From: Stagnihabitans lacustris | GTDB lineage: Bacteria; Pseudomonadota; Alphaproteobacteria; Rhodobacterales; Rhodobacteraceae | DNA: 64,000 bases | Assembly: GCF_025950525.1 (NCBI RefSeq) | Contig: NZ_JAPDGS010000002.1 | Span: 434,001 to 498,000 of the forward strand | Reading direction: 5' to 3' | In this document: positions 32,780-43,272 of the stretch, one piece after another | How positions within the stretch are numbered: the stretch's first letter is position 1 | How the letters are laid out: every line of letters starts with the position of its first letter | Translations under genes and position numbers: made by a program | The notes under the pieces: model-generated | Told to the model about the DNA's origin: nothing | The model's input: the letters and a program-made list of their open reading frames with translations, nothing else | The model's database searches: none

Positions 32780-33388
32780 ATGGGTCGCCACGATCCCGCC
32801 TTGACCATCGCCATATCGGGCCGCGCCGGCCTTGCACGCGGGCTTTATGCCGGCACCGTGCTGCGGACGCCTTTGGGCTGGGCCGCCATTGAAAGCCTGT
32901 GTCCGGGGGAACTGGTGCTGTCGCGCGACCGCGGGCTTTGCCCCGTCGTCAGCCTGACCCGCGAAGAGCGCCCGGCGCTGTGGGCTGTGCGCATCCCCGC
33001 GGGCGCCCTCGAGAACACCGCCGACCTTCTGTTGCCGCCCGGCCAGCCCGTGTTGGTCCAAACCGATTTCGCCATGCCCTATACCGGAGAGGCCGAGGCG
33101 CTGGTTCCGGCCTCGTCGCTTGAGGGGTGGCGCGGCATCCTGCCCGTGGCGCGGGCCACGACCCTGCCGATCTGGCAAGTCCGGCTGGACCGCGCCAGCC
33201 TGATCGAATGTGGCCCCGGGGTCGTTGTGGGGCTGGAAGGCTCCGAGGAGGCCAAGGCCGATCTTTTGACCCGGCTGATGGCGGCGCCGCAGCGGCCGGT
33301 TCTGCCGCTGGCCGCCGCGCGGCACCTGGTCGCAACCCTGATCGGGGCTGCGACCGGGCTGGGGTTGGCTCAGGCGGCGCGGGGGTGA
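32780..33388 (+). CDS. Hint (Hedgehog/intein) domain protein
   Basis: A 202-residue protein from ATG 32780, with GGAGGG upstream, containing a Hint-type module: GLYAGTVLRTPLGWAAIESL, CPGELVLSRDRG, VVSLTREERP and VRIPAGALENTADLLLPPGQPVLVQ. Stand-alone Hint domain proteins are common in this group, often at the end of large secreted repeat proteins, but here there is nothing else attached. The intein-like Cys/Ser nucleophile position is not clear (the block begins ...AGTVLR), so self-splicing is doubtful. It overlaps the 3' end of fadJ by 19 bases, convergently. Confidence 0.7.
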   Translation: MGRHDPALTIAISGRAGLARGLYAGTVLRTPLGWAAIESLCPGELVLSRDRGLCPVVSLTREERPALWAVRIPAGALENTADLLLPPGQPVLVQTDFAMPYTGEAEALVPASSLEGWRGILPVARATTLPIWQVRLDRASLIECGPGVVVGLEGSEEAKADLLTRLMAAPQRPVLPLAAARHLVATLIGAATGLGLAQAARG

Positions 33389-35547
33389 ACGTCGGGGCGG
33401 GGATAGAAGGCCGCGCTGGAGGCCGCCATGTCGCGCAGGCTTTGCGGGGCGCTGAATCTTGGTCCCAGTTCGGCAAGTCCGTCGCAGATCGCCACGGCCT
33501 GACCCGCGCCGATCCGGTCCAGCCAGGAAAACGGCCCACCTGACCACGGCGCAAAGCCCCATCCCAGGATCGCCCCTACATCGCCCTCGCGGATATCGGT
33601 CAGGACACCGGCATCCAGCGCCCGCACCGCCTCTAGTGCCTGGATCATCAAGAGGCGATCTTGCACCGTCGTCAGGTCCGGGGTCTGTGTGACCGGCCAG
33701 AGGTCCGAAAGCCCCTCCCATAGGTCCAGACGTTTGCCAGCCTCGTCATAGGCATAGAAGCCCGCCTTGGCCTTGCGCCCCAGCCGCCCCTGTTCGGCCA
33801 TGGGAAACAGCACCTGATCGACCGCCGTGTCGGGATAGGTGTCGCCCATCGCAGCGCGGGTGGCGGTGGCGATTTTCACCCCCAGGTCGATCGAGGTCTC
33901 GTCCACCAGTTGCAGCGGGCCCAAGGGCATCCCCAGCAGCTTGGCCGCGTTCTCGATCAAGGCCGGGGGGACGCCTTCGGCGACCATCCGCAGGCCCTCG
34001 TTGATATAGGGGATGATGCAGCGGTTGGCATAGAAAAACCGGGCGTCGTTCACCACGATGGGGGTTTTCCGCAGCGCCCGGACGAAGTCGAGCGCCTTGG
34101 CGACGGCGCGGTCTTCGGTCTGTTTGCCGCGGATGATTTCCACCAACGCCATCTTGTCGACCGGCGAAAAGAAGTGGATGCCGATGTAGCTGCCCGGGCG
34201 CTGCGAGGCTTTGGCAAGCCCCGAGATCGGCAGGGTTGACGTGTTGGTGGCCAGGATCGCGCCGGTTGCGGCCTCCACCTTGGCGGTGACTTCGGCCTTG
34301 ACCGATGGGTCTTCGAAGACCGCTTCGACGACCAGGTCACAGGGGGCAAGGGCGGCGTAATCGGTGGTGGCGGTGATGCGGGCCAGGACCTCGGCCTTTT
34401 TCTCGGGCGTCACTTTCCGGCGCTGGACACCCTTTTCCAAAAGCGCCTCGGCATGGGCGCGGCCCTTTTCAGCCGCCTCTTGCGTGGCGTCGATCAGCAC
34501 CACGGAAATCCCGGCATTGGCCGCCACATAGGCGATGCCCGCCCCCATCATGCCCGCGCCGATGACGCCAAGGACCTTGACGCTTTCATCGGGCAGGTCG
34601 GGGCGGCGGGCGCCTTTCTCCAGCGCCTCTTTATTGATGAACAGGCTGCGGATCATCGCGGAGGAGGTGGGGTCCATCAGCACGCCGGTAAAGGCCCGGG
34701 CCTCGACCCGAAGGGCGGTGTCAAAGGGGACCATCGTGCCCTCATAGGCCGCCTGAAGCAGGGCCTGCGCCGCCGGATAGCAGCCTTGGGTTTTCCCCAG
34801 GATCATCGCATTGGCGCCGACAAAGGTCTGGAAGCCCGCAGGGTGATAGGGCGCGCCGCCGGGCAGTTTATAGCCCTTTTGATCCCAGGGTTTCACCAGA
34901 TCGGCCTCTTTGGCCGTCAGGACCCATTCCTTTGCGCGGGCCAAAAGCTGATCGGCGGGGACGACCTCGTCGATCAGCCCCTCGGCCTTGGCCAGACGCG
35001 GAGAGAGCAACTTGCCCTCCATCAGAAAGGGCGCGGCCAGCATCACGCCCATCTTGCGGATCAGTCGCGTCGTGCCGCCCGCACCGGGGAAGATACCCAC
35101 CAGGATCTCCGGCAGGCCGATTTTCGCTTTCGGATTGTCGGCGGCGATGATGCGGTGACAGGCCAGCGGGATTTCAAAGCCGATCCCCAGCCCCGTGCCC
35201 GGCATGGCGCAGACCACGGGCTTGCCGCCCTTCAGCGTCTTGGGGTCCATGCCTGCGCGTTCGATCTTGCGCAGGAAACGGTGGGTTTCCATGATGCCGT
35301 CAAACACCGCCTGCGTGCCGCCCGCCTGCATCTGGGCCAGGACGTTCAGGTCCATCCCCCCCGCGAAATCCTTTTTCCCCGAGGTCAGGACCACGCCCTT
35401 GACCGCGCCATCCCCCAAGGCCCGGTCGATCAGCCGCTCCAGCTCGGCAAAACCCGCCATCGACATGACATTCATCGACCGCCCGGGCGTGTCCCAGGTG
35501 ATCACGGCCACGCCATCGGCATCAAGGTCATAGGTGAAATCGGTCAT
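33370..35547 (-). CDS. fadJ: Multifunctional enoyl-CoA hydratase / 3-hydroxyacyl-CoA dehydrogenase
   Basis: A 725-residue beta-oxidation alpha subunit. The crotonase half (1-~190) has VLTSGKKDFAGGMDLN and PEILVGIFPGAGGTTRL (hydratase acid residues present). The second half has the Rossmann GVIGAGMMGAGIAYVAANAG (near 325-345), IGIHFFSPVDKM and NRCIIPY. It converts trans-enoyl-CoA to 3-ketoacyl-CoA and pairs with a thiolase (encoded at 38430-39635). Its ATG overlaps the stop of an NTF2-like gene (ATGA), so it is the last gene of the cassette operon. Confidence 0.95.
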   Translation of the reverse strand: MTDFTYDLDADGVAVITWDTPGRSMNVMSMAGFAELERLIDRALGDGAVKGVVLTSGKKDFAGGMDLNVLAQMQAGGTQAVFDGIMETHRFLRKIERAGMDPKTLKGGKPVVCAMPGTGLGIGFEIPLACHRIIAADNPKAKIGLPEILVGIFPGAGGTTRLIRKMGVMLAAPFLMEGKLLSPRLAKAEGLIDEVVPADQLLARAKEWVLTAKEADLVKPWDQKGYKLPGGAPYHPAGFQTFVGANAMILGKTQGCYPAAQALLQAAYEGTMVPFDTALRVEARAFTGVLMDPTSSAMIRSLFINKEALEKGARRPDLPDESVKVLGVIGAGMMGAGIAYVAANAGISVVLIDATQEAAEKGRAHAEALLEKGVQRRKVTPEKKAEVLARITATTDYAALAPCDLVVEAVFEDPSVKAEVTAKVEAATGAILATNTSTLPISGLAKASQRPGSYIGIHFFSPVDKMALVEIIRGKQTEDRAVAKALDFVRALRKTPIVVNDARFFYANRCIIPYINEGLRMVAEGVPPALIENAAKLLGMPLGPLQLVDETSIDLGVKIATATRAAMGDTYPDTAVDQVLFPMAEQGRLGRKAKAGFYAYDEAGKRLDLWEGLSDLWPVTQTPDLTTVQDRLLMIQALEAVRALDAGVLTDIREGDVGAILGWGFAPWSGGPFSWLDRIGAGQAVAICDGLAELGPRFSAPQSLRDMAASSAAFYPRPDVHPRAA

Positions 35548-35972
35548 TTTTCCTCCGGGAGTTCTAGACGGATCAGGGGCCAGCGGCTGTTGGCAAGCCC
35601 GTTGGTGACAGAAGCGGCTTTCCAGCGGTTGCCCACCAGCCGCAGGGTCATGATAGACCGATAGGGCGCCAGAACGCGCTGGCCCCCCGCGATCAAGTGG
35701 CTGATATAGCTTCCAGAAATCAGGTCATGGTCCAAAAGTGCGGCCTGTTCGACCAGCCGGATGTAATCGGTGACGCGCAGCGCCTTCAGCGTGCCGGCAA
35801 AGGTGTCAAAGCCGGCCTTCAGCTCGTCTTCGGTGGTGATGACCTTGCTTTCGTCATGGCTGATGACGGCGCAGGGCAGGGCTACGGCCTCACGATAGGC
35901 CTCCCAGTCGAGGCGCAGGGTCGCGGTGGAAACCTCGTCCAGATAGCTTTGCAGGATGCCCGCGCTGTCCAT
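35544..35972 (-). CDS. NTF2-like (SnoaL-type) protein A
   Basis: A 142-residue small alpha+beta protein. The pattern ILQSYLDEVSTATLRLDWEAY, then VITTEDELKAGFDTFAGTL, LRVTDYIRLVE, and IMTLRLVGNRWKAASV is that of an NTF2/SnoaL cone. It resembles two neighbouring genes (37357 and 37819) in layout, so is a paralogue. Start ATG 35972 abuts the stop of the dual-cupin gene (TGAATG). It overlaps fadJ by 4 bases. Substrate unknown. Confidence 0.8.
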   Translation of the reverse strand: MDSAGILQSYLDEVSTATLRLDWEAYREAVALPCAVISHDESKVITTEDELKAGFDTFAGTLKALRVTDYIRLVEQAALLDHDLISGSYISHLIAGGQRVLAPYRSIMTLRLVGNRWKAASVTNGLANSRWPLIRLELPEEK

Positions 35973-36893
35973 TCAGGCCTCTTGCAGATAGCGGCGGGCG
36001 GTGCCGTCTTTTTCGGTGATCAACCCGTGGTCGGGGTAGTGGATGCGGTCCTGGTGCAACCGGGTGCCCAGAACCAGATAGCGGGTCGGGCGGTCGGTCC
36101 GGTTCTGCAGGCAATGGGCGGGACCCGCGCCCCGGGGCCAGGCAAGCGTATCGCCCGGCTGCAAAGCGGTCTCGTGATCCTCGATCAGGGTGGGGTGGCC
36201 GTCCAGGACATGCAGCATCTCGTCCTCGGCCTCGTGCCAGTGGCGAAAGGCGGATCGGCTGCCGGGGGGCAGAATTTCGACAAAGCATCCGAACTGGGTC
36301 AGGCCGCCGGGGTCGGACAGAAGGTGGTAATCGTAATCCCCAAGGCCGCCGCCCAGGATCGGATGGGTATAGCCCCGGGCGGGCACAGGCGCGCCGGGGC
36401 GGATGACGCGGGACCCCGCGCCGGGCGGATCGCCCCAGGGCGCGGCCAGGTTCAGCAGGTGGGGGGGCAGGGCGCCGCCGCGGATGCGCTCGCCGAACGG
36501 GGTCTCGATGTGCCAATCGGTCGCGGTGTTGACCTGGCGCGTGCCGTCGTCATAGGTGCAGATATCACCCCGGGCGCGGGCGCCGATCATGACAAAGCGG
36601 CAAGGCGCCGCGCTGCGGTTGGCCAGGGCATGAGCGTTCGGATCGCCGCGGCGAAAGCAGGCGGCCTGACCGGGCAACAGCGCGGTTTCCCCGGCATCGT
36701 CCAGAAGCGTGACCTGACCTTCCAGCACAAAGACCATCTCGTCCTCGGCCGTATGCCAGTGGCGCTTGCCGGTGGAGGCCCCGGGGTCAAGGCTTTGCAG
36801 ATGCAGGCCGAATTGCGTGATCCCGCCCGCATCCGACAGGGGGATGCTGGTCAGCCCCTCCTGAGCCAGAGCCTGAGGCGGGGTGACGATCAT
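35973..36893 (-). CDS. Dual-cupin protein
   Basis: A 306-residue protein with two cupin barrels. Metal-binding motifs are HWHTAEDE (H45, H47, E52) and HWHEAEDE (H218, H220, E225), each with a downstream motif (PNAHALANR; GPAHCLQNR) providing the third histidine. Each domain also carries GGxTQFG and PG near its start, the same as the single-cupin neighbour, so the three domains are a recent family. Possible roles are dioxygenase, isomerase or ligand binding. The start at 36893 overlaps the upstream gene stop by 4 bases. Confidence 0.85.
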   Translation of the reverse strand: MIVTPPQALAQEGLTSIPLSDAGGITQFGLHLQSLDPGASTGKRHWHTAEDEMVFVLEGQVTLLDDAGETALLPGQAACFRRGDPNAHALANRSAAPCRFVMIGARARGDICTYDDGTRQVNTATDWHIETPFGERIRGGALPPHLLNLAAPWGDPPGAGSRVIRPGAPVPARGYTHPILGGGLGDYDYHLLSDPGGLTQFGCFVEILPPGSRSAFRHWHEAEDEMLHVLDGHPTLIEDHETALQPGDTLAWPRGAGPAHCLQNRTDRPTRYLVLGTRLHQDRIHYPDHGLITEKDGTARRYLQEA

Positions 36894-37360
36894 TTCGGGC
36901 CGCTCCAGTCGCTGCCGTCCTTGTGGGTGAAGCGCGCCTGGCCATCCGCCATATGGACCATCATGTCGACATCGGAATAGGTGGCTGTCTCGGAGGGCGC
37001 CTTGGTGCCCACGACCAGGAACCGCGCCGGGGCGTCGGTGCGGTTGATGAAATGGTGGCCATCCGGGCGCCCGGCCGGAAAGGCCGCGCAGTCGCCGGGG
37101 CGCATCTCGGTTTCGCCCGCATCGGTGATCAGGATGCAGGTCCCCTCTGTCACCATCACGAACTCGTCCTCGTTCAGGTGCCAGTGGCGCAGACTGGACA
37201 GGGCGCCGGGGTCCAGCGTCACCAGATTGACGCCGAATTGCGTCAGGCCCCCCGCCTGACCCAGCCGCAAAGAGGACCGCCCGGCCATCATCGCGGCATA
37301 GGGTTCGGGATAGATGGACCCGGTCTTGACCGGCACTTGCGCAAGGTCGATCTTCATCAT
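36890..37360 (-). CDS. Single-domain cupin protein
   Basis: A 156-residue cupin with RHWHLNEDEFVMV (H59, H61, E66) and GHHFINRTD as the second motif. It is homologous to each half of the dual-cupin gene. Both ends overlap neighbours (ATGA upstream and downstream), so it lies within a fully coupled operon. Metal binding is likely; the reaction is unknown. Confidence 0.85.
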   Translation of the reverse strand: MMKIDLAQVPVKTGSIYPEPYAAMMAGRSSLRLGQAGGLTQFGVNLVTLDPGALSSLRHWHLNEDEFVMVTEGTCILITDAGETEMRPGDCAAFPAGRPDGHHFINRTDAPARFLVVGTKAPSETATYSDVDMMVHMADGQARFTHKDGSDWSGPK

Positions 37361-37815
37361 GTCTCCTTGGGGGTGAAACGGCCGTCCGACACCTCGGCCC
37401 GGCCCATGGTCCAGTGGATATGCCCTTCCGAACTTTCGATCTCGGCAATCTTCCAGCCCTCGTTGCCCTGCACCAGGCGCATCCGGGTTTCGAAAGGCTC
37501 TGCCAGAAGGCGGGCGCGCACCAGGATATGGGTCAGAAGCCGCGCCTCGGCGCCCTGTTCGGTGCGGTGCACGCCCAGCAACTTGCGATAGATATCCGTC
37601 ACGCCATGGGTGCGGATGATTCCGACATAAAGGTCGAAATCGGCGCGAAGGTCGGCTTCGGTCGTCAGGACATAGGGCTTTTCGCCCCGCGGCGTGAATT
37701 GCATCGGCAAGGTCACAAGCGTGCGATACTGCGCGAAATCGCCGCCGATCAGGGCCCGTGTCAAAAGGTCGGACAGTTCGGGGATGGCGCGGTCAGGCAT
37801 CCGCGCCCCCGTCAA
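37357..37815 (-). CDS. NTF2-like protein B
   Basis: A product of up to 152 residues (ATG 37815; an internal ATG at 37800 is also possible). ELSDLLTRALIGGDFAQYRTLVTLPMQ, then VLTTEADLRADFDLYVG, HGVTDIYRKL and a strand-rich C-terminal half with GNEGWKIAEIESSEGHI. The same scheme as the A and C paralogues. It starts 3 bases after the stop of C and overlaps the cupin gene by 4 bases. Confidence 0.78.
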   Translation of the reverse strand: MTGARMPDRAIPELSDLLTRALIGGDFAQYRTLVTLPMQFTPRGEKPYVLTTEADLRADFDLYVGIIRTHGVTDIYRKLLGVHRTEQGAEARLLTHILVRARLLAEPFETRMRLVQGNEGWKIAEIESSEGHIHWTMGRAEVSDGRFTPKET

Positions 37816-37818
37816 GCC

Positions 37819-38238
37819 TCAGGCCAGCGCGCGCCGCGGTTCGGTCGAAAGCCAGTCGCTTTGACACTGCGGATAGTCCGACATCTCGGTCTTGATCCCG
37901 GCGTCGGTCATGCGACAGTAATGCACGATCTGCCCCGACCCGAGCGATTCCCCATCCTTGCCAAAGTCGCGATGCGCGACCCAGACCCGGAACCGCCCAC
38001 CGCGCGGCAGTTCGATGGCGACCACCCAGGTCTCGATCCGGGCGATGTCGCGGGCCGTGGCCATCTTGTGCAGGCGCCCGAACGTCGCTTCCATATCGGC
38101 GGCTGACCGCACGACCTGTTGCCGCCCGCCGGTATAGATCGGAAAGGGGTAAAGATATTCCTGCGCCAGATCGCCATGCCGCCCGGTCAAAAAGAGCGAC
38201 ATGCGCCATTGGAGAAGGTCTTGCAGACGGGCATACAT
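37819..38238 (-). CDS. NTF2-like protein C, first gene of the cassette
   Basis: A 139-residue protein: LQDLLQWRMSLFLTGRHGDL, then a strand-helix region with ADMEATFGRL and the C-terminal GQIVHYCRMTDAGIKTEMSDY. Layout is like the A and B paralogues; sequence has drifted. It is the furthest upstream member. About 190 bases separate it from the thiolase gene, with an operator-like palindrome at 38317-38336. Confidence 0.75.
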   Translation of the reverse strand: MYARLQDLLQWRMSLFLTGRHGDLAQEYLYPFPIYTGGRQQVVRSAADMEATFGRLHKMATARDIARIETWVVAIELPRGGRFRVWVAHRDFGKDGESLGSGQIVHYCRMTDAGIKTEMSDYPQCQSDWLSTEPRRALA

Positions 38239-38429: not shown

Positions 38430-39635
38430 TCAAAGCCTTTCCAGCACCGTCGCCGCGCCCATCCCGCTGGCCACGCATAGGGTCGCAAGGCCAAGCGTCT
38501 TGTCGCTGCGTTCCATCTCGTCCAAGAGTGTGCCAAGGATCATCGCCCCTGTCGCCCCCAAAGGATGCCCCATGGCAATCGACCCGCCATTGACGTTAAC
38601 AAGCGCCGGATCGACGTCGAAAGCCTGCTGAAAGCGCAGGACGACGGCGGCAAAGGCCTCGTTCACCTCGAAAAGGTCGATGTCGCGGATGGTCAGGCCC
38701 GCAGTCTTCAGGATGCGTTCTGTCACCGGCACGGGACCGGTCAGCATGATGGTCGGGTCCGTGCCGACCCGGGCCACGGCGCGGATGCGGGCGCGGGGCT
38801 TCAGCCCATGGGCGTCGCCCCATTCCTTTGATCCCACCAGCACCGCCGCCGCCCCATCGACGATCCCGCTGGAGTTCCCGGCGTGGTGGATGTGGTTGAT
38901 CCGCTCCAGATGCGGGTATTTCATCAAGGCCACCTTGTCGAAGCCCGGCATGACCTCGCCCATCTCCTTGAAGGCCGCCTTCAGCGCACCCAAGGTCGCC
39001 ATATCGGTCCCGGGGCGCATGTATTCATCATGCTCCAGGATCATCAGCCCATTGCGGTCGCGCACCGGGACCACTGAGCGCGCAAAGCGCCCCTCGCCCC
39101 AGGCCTTGGCCGCCCGGCGTTGGCTTTCCACCGCCAGGGCATCGGCCATGTCCCGCGTAAAGCCGTATTCCGTGGCGATGATGTCGGCCGAAATCCCCTG
39201 CGGCACGAACCGCGTGCCCATGGCCAGCGAGGGGTCCACCGCAATCGCCGCGCCGTCCGAGCCCATGGCCACCCGGCTCATCATCTCGACCCCGCCGGCG
39301 ATATAGGCGCCGCCATTGGCCGCAACCCCCTGGGCGGCCAGGTTGACCGCCTCCATGCCGCTGGCGCAGAACCGGTTGATCGACAGGCCCGGGATCGCTT
39401 CGTCCAGCCCGCTGGCCAGGACCGCCGAGCGCGCCAGGCAGCCGCCTTGTTCGCCCACCTGCGTGACATTGCCCCAGATGACATCCTCGATCACCGCGCC
39501 TGTGATCCCGTTGCGCGCGGCCAAAGCGTCCAGGATCTGCGCCGACAAGGCCACCGACGTGACCTCATGCAAGGCCCCGTCAGGCCGCCCCTTGCCGCGG
39601 GGGGATCGGATGGCGTCGAAGATATAGGCGTCCAT
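38430..39635 (-). CDS. fadA: Acetyl-CoA acetyltransferase / 3-ketoacyl-CoA thiolase
   Basis: A 401-residue thiolase. The acyl-accepting Cys is C90 in INRFCASGMEAV; GGSIAMGHPLGATG and LATLCVASGMG carry the His and the second Cys. It cleaves 3-ketoacyl-CoA with CoA, or condenses two acetyl-CoA. Being in the same minus-strand run as fadE-type and fadJ genes, it is the natural beta subunit partner of fadJ. The cassette of NTF2-like/cupin genes lies between the two. The symbol fadA rests on context; a phaA-like role is possible. Confidence 0.88.
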   Translation of the reverse strand: MDAYIFDAIRSPRGKGRPDGALHEVTSVALSAQILDALAARNGITGAVIEDVIWGNVTQVGEQGGCLARSAVLASGLDEAIPGLSINRFCASGMEAVNLAAQGVAANGGAYIAGGVEMMSRVAMGSDGAAIAVDPSLAMGTRFVPQGISADIIATEYGFTRDMADALAVESQRRAAKAWGEGRFARSVVPVRDRNGLMILEHDEYMRPGTDMATLGALKAAFKEMGEVMPGFDKVALMKYPHLERINHIHHAGNSSGIVDGAAAVLVGSKEWGDAHGLKPRARIRAVARVGTDPTIMLTGPVPVTERILKTAGLTIRDIDLFEVNEAFAAVVLRFQQAFDVDPALVNVNGGSIAMGHPLGATGAMILGTLLDEMERSDKTLGLATLCVASGMGAATVLERL

Positions 39636-39677: not shown

Positions 39678-40286
39678 TTACTTGAAGGCGGGGGGCATCA
39701 GGTCATAGGGAGGCCGCCAGCCGGGAAGTGCTGCGATCCGGTCCAGCCAGGCCCCGATGGCCGGCCAGTCCGCGCGGTCAAAGCCGTAAGGCTCCGGGTA
39801 ATACAGATACCCACAGCACGAGATATCCGCGATTGAGGCCGCATCCCCCACCAGCCAGTCGCGGCGCGAAAGCTCGCCCTCCAGCACCTGATAAGCCGCC
39901 CTCAAACGCCCCTGCAGGAAGGGGATCACCCCCACGGGTCGCTTCTCCTCGGGCAGGAAGTTCATCAGGAACCGGCAGGACCCGATCTGCGCCGACAGCT
40001 TGTGATTGTCCCAGAGCAGCCAGCGCAGCACCTCCGCCCGCGGCCCGCCAAACTGCCCCGTGACCTGCGCCAGGTGATCCAGCATGACGCCGGATTGCGT
40101 CAGCACCAGATCGCCATCGACCAGCACCGGCACCTCTCCCATCGGGTTCAGCGCGCGGAATTCAGGCGTCCGGGCGCCCCCGGTAAAGAAGGGCACGAAC
40201 TCCAGCTCCCACCGGGTGCCGGTCAGTTCCAGCATCAGCGCCACCTTATAGGCATTGCCGCTTTCGCCGAATCCGTAAAGCTTCAT
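39678..40286 (-). CDS. Glutathione S-transferase family protein
   Basis: A 202-residue protein with the thioredoxin-like N-terminal domain (MKLYGFGESGNAYKVALMLEL; Ser at the active-site position) and helical C-terminal domain. PMGEVPVLVDGD is the cis-Pro block. Located between the thiolase gene and a 69-residue gene, overlapping the latter by 4 bases. Likely a detoxification accessory of the fad locus; the substrate is unknown. Confidence 0.9.
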   Translation of the reverse strand: MKLYGFGESGNAYKVALMLELTGTRWELEFVPFFTGGARTPEFRALNPMGEVPVLVDGDLVLTQSGVMLDHLAQVTGQFGGPRAEVLRWLLWDNHKLSAQIGSCRFLMNFLPEEKRPVGVIPFLQGRLRAAYQVLEGELSRRDWLVGDAASIADISCCGYLYYPEPYGFDRADWPAIGAWLDRIAALPGWRPPYDLMPPAFK

Positions 40287-40492
40287 CGCCTCTCCTCCAA
40301 CTCGGCCTGGAACAGCCGCATCCGGTGGACCAGTTTCTCATGGTCCGTGACGCTGTCGAAATGTTCGAACAGGAAGGACAAGGCCTCCCCCTCCTCCAAC
40401 CCCGCCTCGGCCGCGAAACGGCGCAGACGGCGGTATCCTTCTTCGGTCATCGCAACGGGAAACCGCCGCGTCAGTCGAAATCTCTTGGGCAT
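40283..40492 (-). CDS. Small RHH-like protein
   Basis: A 69-residue basic protein. RFPVAMTEEGYRRLRRFAAE and EALSFLFEHFDSV fit a ribbon-helix-helix pattern (strand, helix, turn, helix), so a small DNA-binding or antitoxin-like role is possible. It overlaps the GST start by 4 bases and is likely co-expressed. GGAGGG lies upstream of the ATG. Confidence 0.7.
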   Translation of the reverse strand: MPKRFRLTRRFPVAMTEEGYRRLRRFAAEAGLEEGEALSFLFEHFDSVTDHEKLVHRMRLFQAELEERR

Positions 40493-40663: not shown

Positions 40664-42394
40664 TCAGAAATCCTCCGCCGCCAGAGCCATGACCGAAGCC
40701 CCCCCGGCCTCGATCCGCGCCAGATGCAGCGCGCAGGCCGGCAGAGCGCGGGTCATGTAATGCCGCGCCGTCACCAGCTTGGCCGCGCCAAAGCTGCCGC
40801 CCATCTCTAAAGCAGCCCGCGCCATCCGCACCCACATCAGGCCCAGGCAGACATGCCCCGCCAGATGCAGGAAATCGGTCGAGCCTGCCAAAGCGTCATT
40901 CGGGTTCTTCATCCCCCGCTCGGCAAAGACCATGGCCGCGGCCTGCATCTGCTTGGAGGCCACTTTCAGCGCGCCGGTGAACTCGGCCATCTCGGGCCGG
41001 TCGTCATGGGCGCAACATTCGGATTTCAGGATGTCAAAGAAATCCATCACCGGCTTGCCACCCTCTGCGGTCAGCTTGCGGCCCACAAGGTCCAAGGCCT
41101 GCACCCCATTGGCGCCCTCATAGATCATCGCGATCCGCGCATCGCGGACATATTGGCTGACCCCATTGTCCTCGATATAGCCATGCCCGCCCCAGACCTG
41201 CTGCGCCGTCACCGCGCCCTCGAACCCCTTGTCGGTCAGGAAGCCCTTCATCACCGGGATCAACAGCGACACCACCCCCTCCGCCGCGCGATCCCCCAGC
41301 CGATGCGCCCGGTCCAGCATCACGGCGCCCCAATAGGTCAGCGCGCGGGCCCCTTCGACAAAGGCCTTCTGATCCATCAACATCCGCCGCACGTCCGGGT
41401 GCACGATCAAGGCCTCGGACGGCCCGGGACCCGAGGTCACACCGCGGCCCTGAATACGCTCCCGCGCATAACCCACCGAGGATTGATAGGCGGCTTCCGC
41501 CACCGCATAGCCCTGCAGCGCCACGCCCAACCGCGCTTCGTTCATCATGGTGAACATGGCGCGCATCCCCTTGTGCAGGTCCCCCACCAGCCAGCCCCGT
41601 GCGCCGTCGTAATTCATCACGCAGGTGGCATTGCCATGGATGCCCATCTTGTCTTCGACCTTGCCGGGGGCCACGGCATTGCGGCTGCCATCCTCCAGGT
41701 ATTTCGGCACGACAAAGAGGCTGATCCCGCGCGTCCCCTCACCCCCGCCCGGCGCCTTGGCCAGCACCAGATGGATGATGTTCGACGCCATCTCGTGATC
41801 GCCGGCCGAGATGAAGATCTTGGTCCCGGTGATCAGATAGGACCCATCCGGTTGCGGCTCTGCCTTGGTGCGGATCAGACCCAGGTCCGTGCCGCATTGC
41901 GGCTCGGTCAGGTTCATCGTGCCGGTCCATTCGCAGGTCGCAAGCTTGGGCAGGTAATAGGCCTTCTGCGCCTCCGTGCCATGCACCCGAAGGGCCGAGT
42001 AGGCGCCATGGGTCAGGCCCTGATACATCTGCAAGGCCATGTTCGCCGAAACGAAGGTCTCATTCACCGCCGTATGCAGGATATAGGGCAGGCCCTGACC
42101 GCCATGATCCACGTCACAGTCGATCGCCGTCCAGCCCCCCTGACGCAGGGCGTCAAAGGCCTGTTGAAAGCCCGAAGGCACGCGGACCTTGCCATTCTCC
42201 AACCGGCACCCCTCACGGTCGCCCACCGCGTTCAGGGGCGCCAGCATATCGGCGCACAGCTTGCCCGCCTCCTCCAGGATCGCCTGCGTAAACCCCGTAT
42301 CCAGATCGCCATAGCCGGGAATGTCGCTGTCTTGCACCTTCAGCACATGGTGCAGAACGAAGCCGATGTCCGTCAAAGGTGCGCGATAACCCAT
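40664..42394 (-). CDS. Acyl-CoA dehydrogenase, long form
   Basis: A 576-residue FAD enzyme of the C-terminal-extended (ACDH/FadE5-like) class: [40 protein letters not shown], and [18 protein letters not shown] carrying the catalytic Glu. Oxidises acyl-CoA to trans-2-enoyl-CoA. Its ATG lies 3 bases after the stop of a MerR gene, which is upstream on the same strand. Confidence 0.93.
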
Positions 42395-42397
42395 GTC

Positions 42398-42787
42398 TTA
42401 CTCCGCTGCCGCCTTGAAGGCCGCGATCATCGCAGCCCCCTCGGCCAATTCCTGTTTCAACTCTGCGATGGCCAGGTCCAATTCGTCCCGCTGCGCCACC
42501 ATCTGCCCCAGACGGTCCACCGCCACGGCATAGGTCCGCTCCAGCTGGGCCTGGTTGGAGCCCTCGCGCTCATACATGTCCAGAAGCTGACGGATATCTT
42601 CCAACGAAAAGCCAAAGCGTTTGCCGCGCAGGATCAACTGCAGCCGCGCCCGCGCCTTGCGGTCATAAAGCCGGTGCGAGCCCTGGCGGATCGGCCAGAT
42701 CAGCTCTTTTTGCTCATAAAACCGCAGCGTCCGCGCCGTGACCTGATAGGCCGCGCACATTTCGCCGATCGTCAGGACATCGTCCAT
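42398..42787 (-). CDS. MerR family regulator 1
   Basis: A 129-residue regulator with an N-terminal winged HTH (LTIGEMCAAYQVTARTLRFYE) and a coiled-coil C-terminus (ELDLAIAELKQEL). ATG 42787 has GGAGG upstream; ATGs at 42799 and 42856 are less likely. It lies upstream of the acyl-CoA dehydrogenase and downstream of an ACGT-rich operator at 42841. Like LiuR-type MerR proteins, it likely controls acyl-CoA catabolism in response to an acyl-CoA ligand. Confidence 0.92.
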   Translation of the reverse strand: MDDVLTIGEMCAAYQVTARTLRFYEQKELIWPIRQGSHRLYDRKARARLQLILRGKRFGFSLEDIRQLLDMYEREGSNQAQLERTYAVAVDRLGQMVAQRDELDLAIAELKQELAEGAAMIAAFKAAAE

Positions 42788-42840
42788 CACAGCCTCCATG
42801 GGATCAGGATGGCGCGTGCCCCGCGCCATGAAAAGGGAAA

Positions 42841-42862
42841 TTGACGTTGACGTCAAGGTAAC
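42841..42862 (-). promoter_or_regulatory. MerR-type operator upstream of regulator 1
   Basis: TTGACGTTGACGTCAAGGTAA (near-palindrome TTGACGTTGACGTCAA, followed by GGTAA). The same word is found inverted at 43251. LiuR-type MerR regulators of fatty- and branched-chain acid catabolism are known to bind ACGT-centred palindromes of this form. Confidence 0.7.
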
Positions 42863-42868
42863 GTGGCG

Positions 42869-43246
42869 TCACGGGAGGTTCGACAGATCCTCGGCCGAGG
42901 CGGTGCGCAGGGCGCGCAGATCGGCAATACGGCGGGCCAACTCCGCCTCTTCGGCAGCCAGCGCGGCCAGACGGCGATCCGCCAGCTCCAACCAGGCCTC
43001 AAGCTGCGACCTTGTGCCCTTCATGTTGTAGATCAGCAGCCATTGCCGGATTTCCTCCAGCGAAAAGCCGAAATGCCGGCCGCGCAGAATCAGCGTCATC
43101 CGCGCACATTCCCGCGCGCCATAGAACCGCGCGCGGCCCTGTTTTTGCGGCGCGATCAGTTCGATATACTCGTAATAGCGCAGGGTGCGCGGCGTCACGT
43201 CGAACTTCGCGCACATGTCCTTGAAGGTCAGAAGGGTGTCATCCAT
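42869..43246 (-). CDS. MerR family regulator 2
   Basis: A 125-residue paralogue: LLTFKDMCAKFDVTPRTLRYYEY HTH, then RFYGARECARMTLILRGR, and a coiled coil (ELARRIADLRALR). It is divergent from the thioesterase gene at 43324 and has the operator at 43251 in its immediate promoter, partly next to its ATG. Together with regulator 1 it forms the regulatory end of the fad locus. Confidence 0.92.
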   Translation of the reverse strand: MDDTLLTFKDMCAKFDVTPRTLRYYEYIELIAPQKQGRARFYGARECARMTLILRGRHFGFSLEEIRQWLLIYNMKGTRSQLEAWLELADRRLAALAAEEAELARRIADLRALRTASAEDLSNLP

Positions 43247-43250
43247 GAGC

Positions 43251-43272
43251 TTACCTTAACGTCAACGTCAGC
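43251..43272 (+). promoter_or_regulatory. MerR-type operator upstream of regulator 2 and thioesterase 1
   Basis: TTACCTTAACGTCAACGTCAG: reverse complement of the operator at 42841 with one base changed. It sits between the divergent ATGs (43246 minus and 43324 plus), so can control both directions. Confidence 0.7.

Follow-up and report, generated by a model that had tools for sequence, protein, structure and literature searches.

The interval between the thiolase and fadJ genes of a core beta-oxidation operon in the Rhodobacteraceae is a variable accessory slot, occupied by different combinations of small NTF2-like and cupin genes that have come and gone repeatedly, and not a fixed pathway. 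The slot analysed here, in a 64,000-nucleotide window of Stagnihabitans lacustris DNA (the whole stretch examined), holds five genes, arranged on the minus strand in the order NTF2-like A, B, single cupin, double cupin and NTF2-like C. The operon as a whole has the order MerR1-MerR2-acyl-CoA dehydrogenase-small ORF-GST-thiolase-slot-fadJ, with the following features:

42869..43255, minus strand, MerR-family regulator 1; frame to stop, start unfixed; 54% identity to MerR 2 by tblastn
42398..42790, minus strand, MerR-family regulator 2; Pfam MerR_1, E 9e-15; 3 nt ahead of the dehydrogenase
40664..42394, minus strand, acyl-CoA dehydrogenase with a C-terminal PF12806 domain (Pfam); a 60-77% identical orthologue heads the operon of relatives
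40283..40492, minus strand, conserved small ORF of 69 aa; 4-nt overlap with the GST start; present in 85 of 116 loci
39678..40286, minus strand, glutathione S-transferase family protein (GST); Pfam GST_N/GST_C
38430..39635, minus strand, thiolase (acetyl-CoA C-acyltransferase), upstream border of the slot; NCBIfam NF006090 above cut-off
37819..38238, minus strand, NTF2-like A, slot gene 1, second NTF2 subfamily; AlphaFold2 pLDDT 88.8 and Foldseek matches to ketosteroid isomerase-like NTF2 folds
37357..37800, minus strand, NTF2-like B; homologues in 47 of 296 family genomes; 28% identity to C
36890..37360, minus strand, single cupin; Pfam Cupin_2; HWHLNEDE at 37163-37186 and the second-motif His
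35973..36893, minus strand, double cupin; Pfam Cupin_2 in two stretches; HWHTAEDE at 36738-36761 and HWHEAEDE at 36219-36242
35544..35972, minus strand, NTF2-like C; AlphaFold2 pLDDT 91.7; best Foldseek match SgcE6 (4i4k), E 1.5e-7
33370..35547, minus strand, FadJ-type multifunctional alpha subunit, bordering the slot downstream; ECH_1, 3HCDH_N and 3HCDH domains

The acyl-CoA dehydrogenase, thiolase and fadJ genes were co-directional and syntenic across genera. The first-pass annotation had described a cassette of five genes that overlap or abut by 0-4 bases, part the thiolase from fadJ and overlap the fadJ start. The five genes do lie between fadJ and the thiolase (35544-38238), C overlaps fadJ by 4 nt, and three further junctions are equally tight (B/single cupin, -4 nt; single cupin/double cupin, -4 nt; double cupin/C, 0 nt), but the A/B junction is 18 nt, taking the A/B start codon (ATG) that is backed by homologues. 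The distance from the thiolase to A is 191 nt, and a search of this gap for a gene remnant yielded no convincing one.

The position of the slot was well conserved. A search of 296 family genomes with NTF2-like B matched 47, and in 37 of the 40 regions fetched from other genomes an NTF2 gene lay between the same thiolase and fadJ, so that the gene order is more than chance; the other three regions came from genomes whose slot is also filled. Family members outside the slot included L069:9246-10418 and L070:9252-10340 (a fused pair and a tandem pair), again in genomes with filled slots.

The content of the slot was surveyed in 80 loci drawn with a thiolase profile, to avoid selecting filled slots, of which 78 show the whole slot. 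The sample consists of the 80 best thiolase matches and is not a random draw, and the proportions are approximate; A-type NTF2 genes were missed by the first profile and were later added to the counts. Among the 78 Rhodobacteraceae loci the slot was empty in 25, held a cupin only in 26, NTF2 only in 18 and both in 9. The two families tended toward exclusion (odds 0.48, Fisher p 0.16, n=78 best thiolase matches), and on these counts the idea of NTF2 and cupin as an obligate pair was dropped. The proposal of a single five-gene pathway is not borne out, since the two families usually occur alone, and their independence argues against a fixed pathway. The slots with neither family were closed, with a thiolase-fadJ gap of 14-30 nt, in 24 of 25 cases, the exception being the 322-nt slot of locus L134. 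This slot (L134:10204-10525) contains a short ORF belonging to neither family; an NTF2 gene is present in the sister genome on the tree, L147.

Filled slots carried many arrangements, ranging across the family from zero to five NTF2-like domains and from zero to three cupin domains; the extremes were L136, with five NTF2 domains and one cupin, and L086 and L135, with three cupins each. Sequence other than NTF2 and cupin was almost absent. The exact five-gene set was seen in this genome only, the nearest sets being those of L057 (A, cupin, second cupin, C) and L035 (B, cupin, double cupin). The conserved neighbourhood expected of such a cassette extends to its place but not to its content.

On a tree of thiolase plus fadJ (78 loci), the minimum number of changes was 13 for NTF2, 16 for cupin, 15 for the empty or filled state and 33 for exact counts. 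In a relative of the same genus (G077) the slot consists of B and the single cupin only; fadJ is preceded there by what is probably an N-terminal remnant of C (58% over 19 aa, E 2e-4 within 181 nt). No full NTF2 relative was found elsewhere in 15 empty-slot genomes, which gave one partial weak hit, while a strong cupin relative was present elsewhere in 3 of the 15. Single-pair dN/dS estimates were 0.01-0.15 for the thiolase, 0.03-0.28 for the cupins, 0.39 for NTF2-like B and 0.40 for A; by this measure all of the genes compared are constrained, the NTF2 genes least. The rapid divergence and frequent loss could reflect relaxed selection or distinct roles of the individual slot genes.

The first-pass description of three paralogous cupin domains, all with HWHxxEDE metal sites, was confirmed: the domains share 37-44% identity (z 31-48 against shuffles), and the motifs are HWHLNEDE in the single cupin and HWHTAEDE and HWHEAEDE in the double cupin. 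The Cupin_2 match and both motifs, with three His and one Glu, are present, and His59, Asp65, Glu66 and His102 were invariant in 22 of 22 slot cupins, with His61 in 20 of 22. The slot-cupin profile matched PDB entry 3i7d with E 1e-73, and a Ruegeria slot cupin matches 3i7d near full length. This close relative was deposited as a 'sugar phosphate isomerase', and a literature search on 3i7d found no paper backing the name. Solved structures more distantly related to the cupin include quercetin dioxygenase. Like the double cupin, quercetinase and the oxalate decarboxylase bicupins combine two cupin domains that each carry a metal motif, but the sequence similarity is distant and weak, and the scores against NCBIfam bicupin_oxalic (TIGR03404), 12.6 and 22.3 bits, fall far below its cut-off of 254. 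One slot cupin, L108:5635-6122, is split into two frames (67 and 95 aa), probably by a frameshift or sequencing error.

The NTF2-like proteins A, B and C matched no Pfam family at E<=1, including SnoaL families, and no NCBIfam model; SnoaL_4 had no match anywhere in the genome, and searching PDB sequences with the NTF2 profile yielded nothing beyond chance hits. The fold called from sequence in the first-pass annotation was nevertheless upheld by structure prediction for C and A. The AlphaFold2 model of C (mean pLDDT 91.7) had SgcE6 (4i4k) as its best Foldseek match (E 1.5e-7), and that of A (mean pLDDT 88.8) a putative ketosteroid isomerase (E 1.8e-7); in both, the helices and the curved sheet on which they pack follow the NTF2 order, alpha-alpha-beta-beta-alpha-beta-beta-beta-beta. 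By homology to C, protein B is predicted to have the NTF2 fold too. Of the three proteins, seen in the first pass as likely paralogues, B and C are (28% identity, z 18.6 against shuffles). Pairwise comparison of A with B and C detected no relation (z 0.4 and 1.0), and A is linked to them through its predicted fold and a single profile comparison, in which A-type relatives matched the B/C profile with an hhalign E of 3e-11. A-type relatives occur at loci L057, L093, L098, L101, L111, L128 and L148. Tandem NTF2-NTF2 fusions occurred in many slots.

Ketosteroid isomerase and scytalone dehydratase were among the Foldseek hits of the C and A models, and the NTF2-like genes had been proposed to encode hydratases, isomerases or cyclases. 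When the catalytic residues of ketosteroid isomerase (Tyr16, Asp40 and Asp103) were compared across 102 NTF2 domains, no conserved acid/base pair of this kind was found, and the position aligned with Asp40 was mostly Thr, Pro or Ser, although the NTF2-ketosteroid isomerase alignment is weak. The likeness to ketosteroid isomerase and SnoaL-type enzymes lies in the predicted fold of A and C; the slot proteins differ in having neither a Pfam SnoaL match nor, as far as the weak alignment shows, a conserved catalytic acid pair. The near-invariant residues were instead Pro33 (99%), Trp117 (95%) and Arg72 (91%), followed by Pro103 and Asp22, and from the alignment the most conserved of these look structural. 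The family may yet prove enzymatic, through residues that vary by subfamily; the A-type proteins do have Arg84, Cys108 and Glu118 in common.

We tentatively favor a reading, which could well be right, in which the cupins are metal-dependent enzymes and the NTF2-like proteins are ligand-binding or partner proteins, which together would adapt the core beta-oxidation operon to local substrates. The cupins are taken to be enzymes because their metal sites are intact, and the NTF2-like proteins to be mainly binding or partner proteins because they appear to lack conserved catalytic residues, form fusions and change fast. In such a scheme, 1) the position of the slot would ensure co-expression of its genes with the thiolase and FadJ, in matched amounts, 2) the cupins, with a complete three-His, one-Glu site, would serve as metal-dependent accessory enzymes acting on the acyl-CoA or on a released by-product, 3) the NTF2-like proteins would be mainly dimeric ligand-binding or partner proteins, and 4) lineages would retain different slot members according to the acyl substrates that they meet.

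An unlikely but serious alternative is that the NTF2-like proteins, and perhaps the cupins too, are non-catalytic structural or regulatory partners of a thiolase-FadJ complex that set its assembly or substrate access. Wherever the slot is filled, they lie between genes for two enzymes that are partners, their most conserved residues look structural, and fused NTF2 pairs are what obligate dimers would give; however, the third of the genomes that lack both families still keep the thiolase and fadJ, and the cupins retain full metal sites. We consider it somewhat less likely again that two unrelated small folds were recruited to the same job, that of tuning what the beta-oxidation enzymes accept, with a lineage employing either fold or the two together, which would constitute a new accessory subunit system. 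The pathway first suggested, in which cupin oxygenases and NTF2-like hydratases, isomerases or cyclases turn a cyclic or oxygenated acid into feed for beta-oxidation, is improbable. It is consistent with the tight coupling of the slot genes to fadJ, the intact cupin sites and the enzymes that share the NTF2 fold, but the gene set is not fixed, its two families are independent, the NTF2 domains lack the acid/base pair (with the Asp40 alignment weak, as noted above), the operon has no ring-cleaving or CoA-ligase gene, and no specific support was found for a cyclic or oxygenated acid as substrate. Least probable is a detoxification module, in which the cupins and NTF2-like proteins act with the GST to clear reactive or oxidised acyl species (peroxides, epoxides, electrophilic enoyl-CoA) from beta-oxidation, for although the GST belongs to the core of the operon and quercetin dioxygenase is a distant relative of the cupin, the GST is kept where the slot is empty (L224).

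Beta-oxidation operons are taken as settled, and the slot suggests an accessory layer, so far unstudied, in this large family of marine and freshwater bacteria, for which it also supplies natural presence/absence pairs as test material. Neither Pfam nor NCBIfam detects the NTF2 family, and the name that the cupin carries in the PDB (3i7d) is a putative one. Literature searches on the gene set found no description of such a system or of a function for the slot, in agreement with the initial impression that no system of this composition had been described.

The Ruegeria loci, headed by the acyl-CoA dehydrogenase, continue with GST, thiolase, cupin and fadJ, the cupin occupying the slot. PDB 3i7d is probably SPO2919, which would fit the locus-tag spacing; from that spacing, SPO2915 is probably the acyl-CoA dehydrogenase that heads this operon. 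No mention of SPO2918, SPO2919 or SPO2920 was found in the literature searched. R. pomeroyi has three DmdC isozymes, including DmdC3 (SPO2915), verified on 3-methylmercaptopropionyl-CoA (PMC5395565), and its dmdC3 rises on DMSP (PMC9769926). Should this operon prove to be the DmdC3 locus, the slot could also have a bearing on the turnover of DMSP sulfur.

Outside the Rhodobacteraceae, 23 thiolase loci from other alphaproteobacterial families were compared, five weaker thiolase matches without fadJ having been excluded. In most of the 23, fadJ came directly after the thiolase; in three, a 50-52% identical cupin lay between them, and none had a member of the NTF2 family. The class-level NTF2 hits outside the family were weak, with no operon gene adjoining. 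The NTF2 genes look like an addition made within the Rhodobacteraceae. A single clade of all slot cupins, those of other families included, was rejected (p-AU 3e-87) in a set that included divergent second cupins. Twenty-nine first-position cupins, most of those in the Rhodobacteraceae, grouped together with one extra copy (SH-aLRT 94), and because the slot cupins of other families fell among non-slot cupins, the cupin may have been recruited into the slot more than once. On plasmids and in other proteobacteria, the surroundings of the cupin relatives revealed no constant partner. An NTF2-family gene was found beside or near a cupin in two of the plasmid contexts examined (Leptolyngbya and Sphingomonas), too few to interpret.

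Further observations concern other parts of the operon. The paralogous MerR pair at its head (42398-43255, minus strand) is kept as a pair in most relatives. The 69-aa small protein (40283-40492) is charged and 70-83% identical in the relatives listed, with a sub-threshold match to DUF366. Many genomes, among them those of loci L036, L038, L041, L042 and L045-L047, carry a further acyl-CoA dehydrogenase, only distantly related to the first (26-29% identical), between that gene and the GST; this insertion point is another variable position in the operon.
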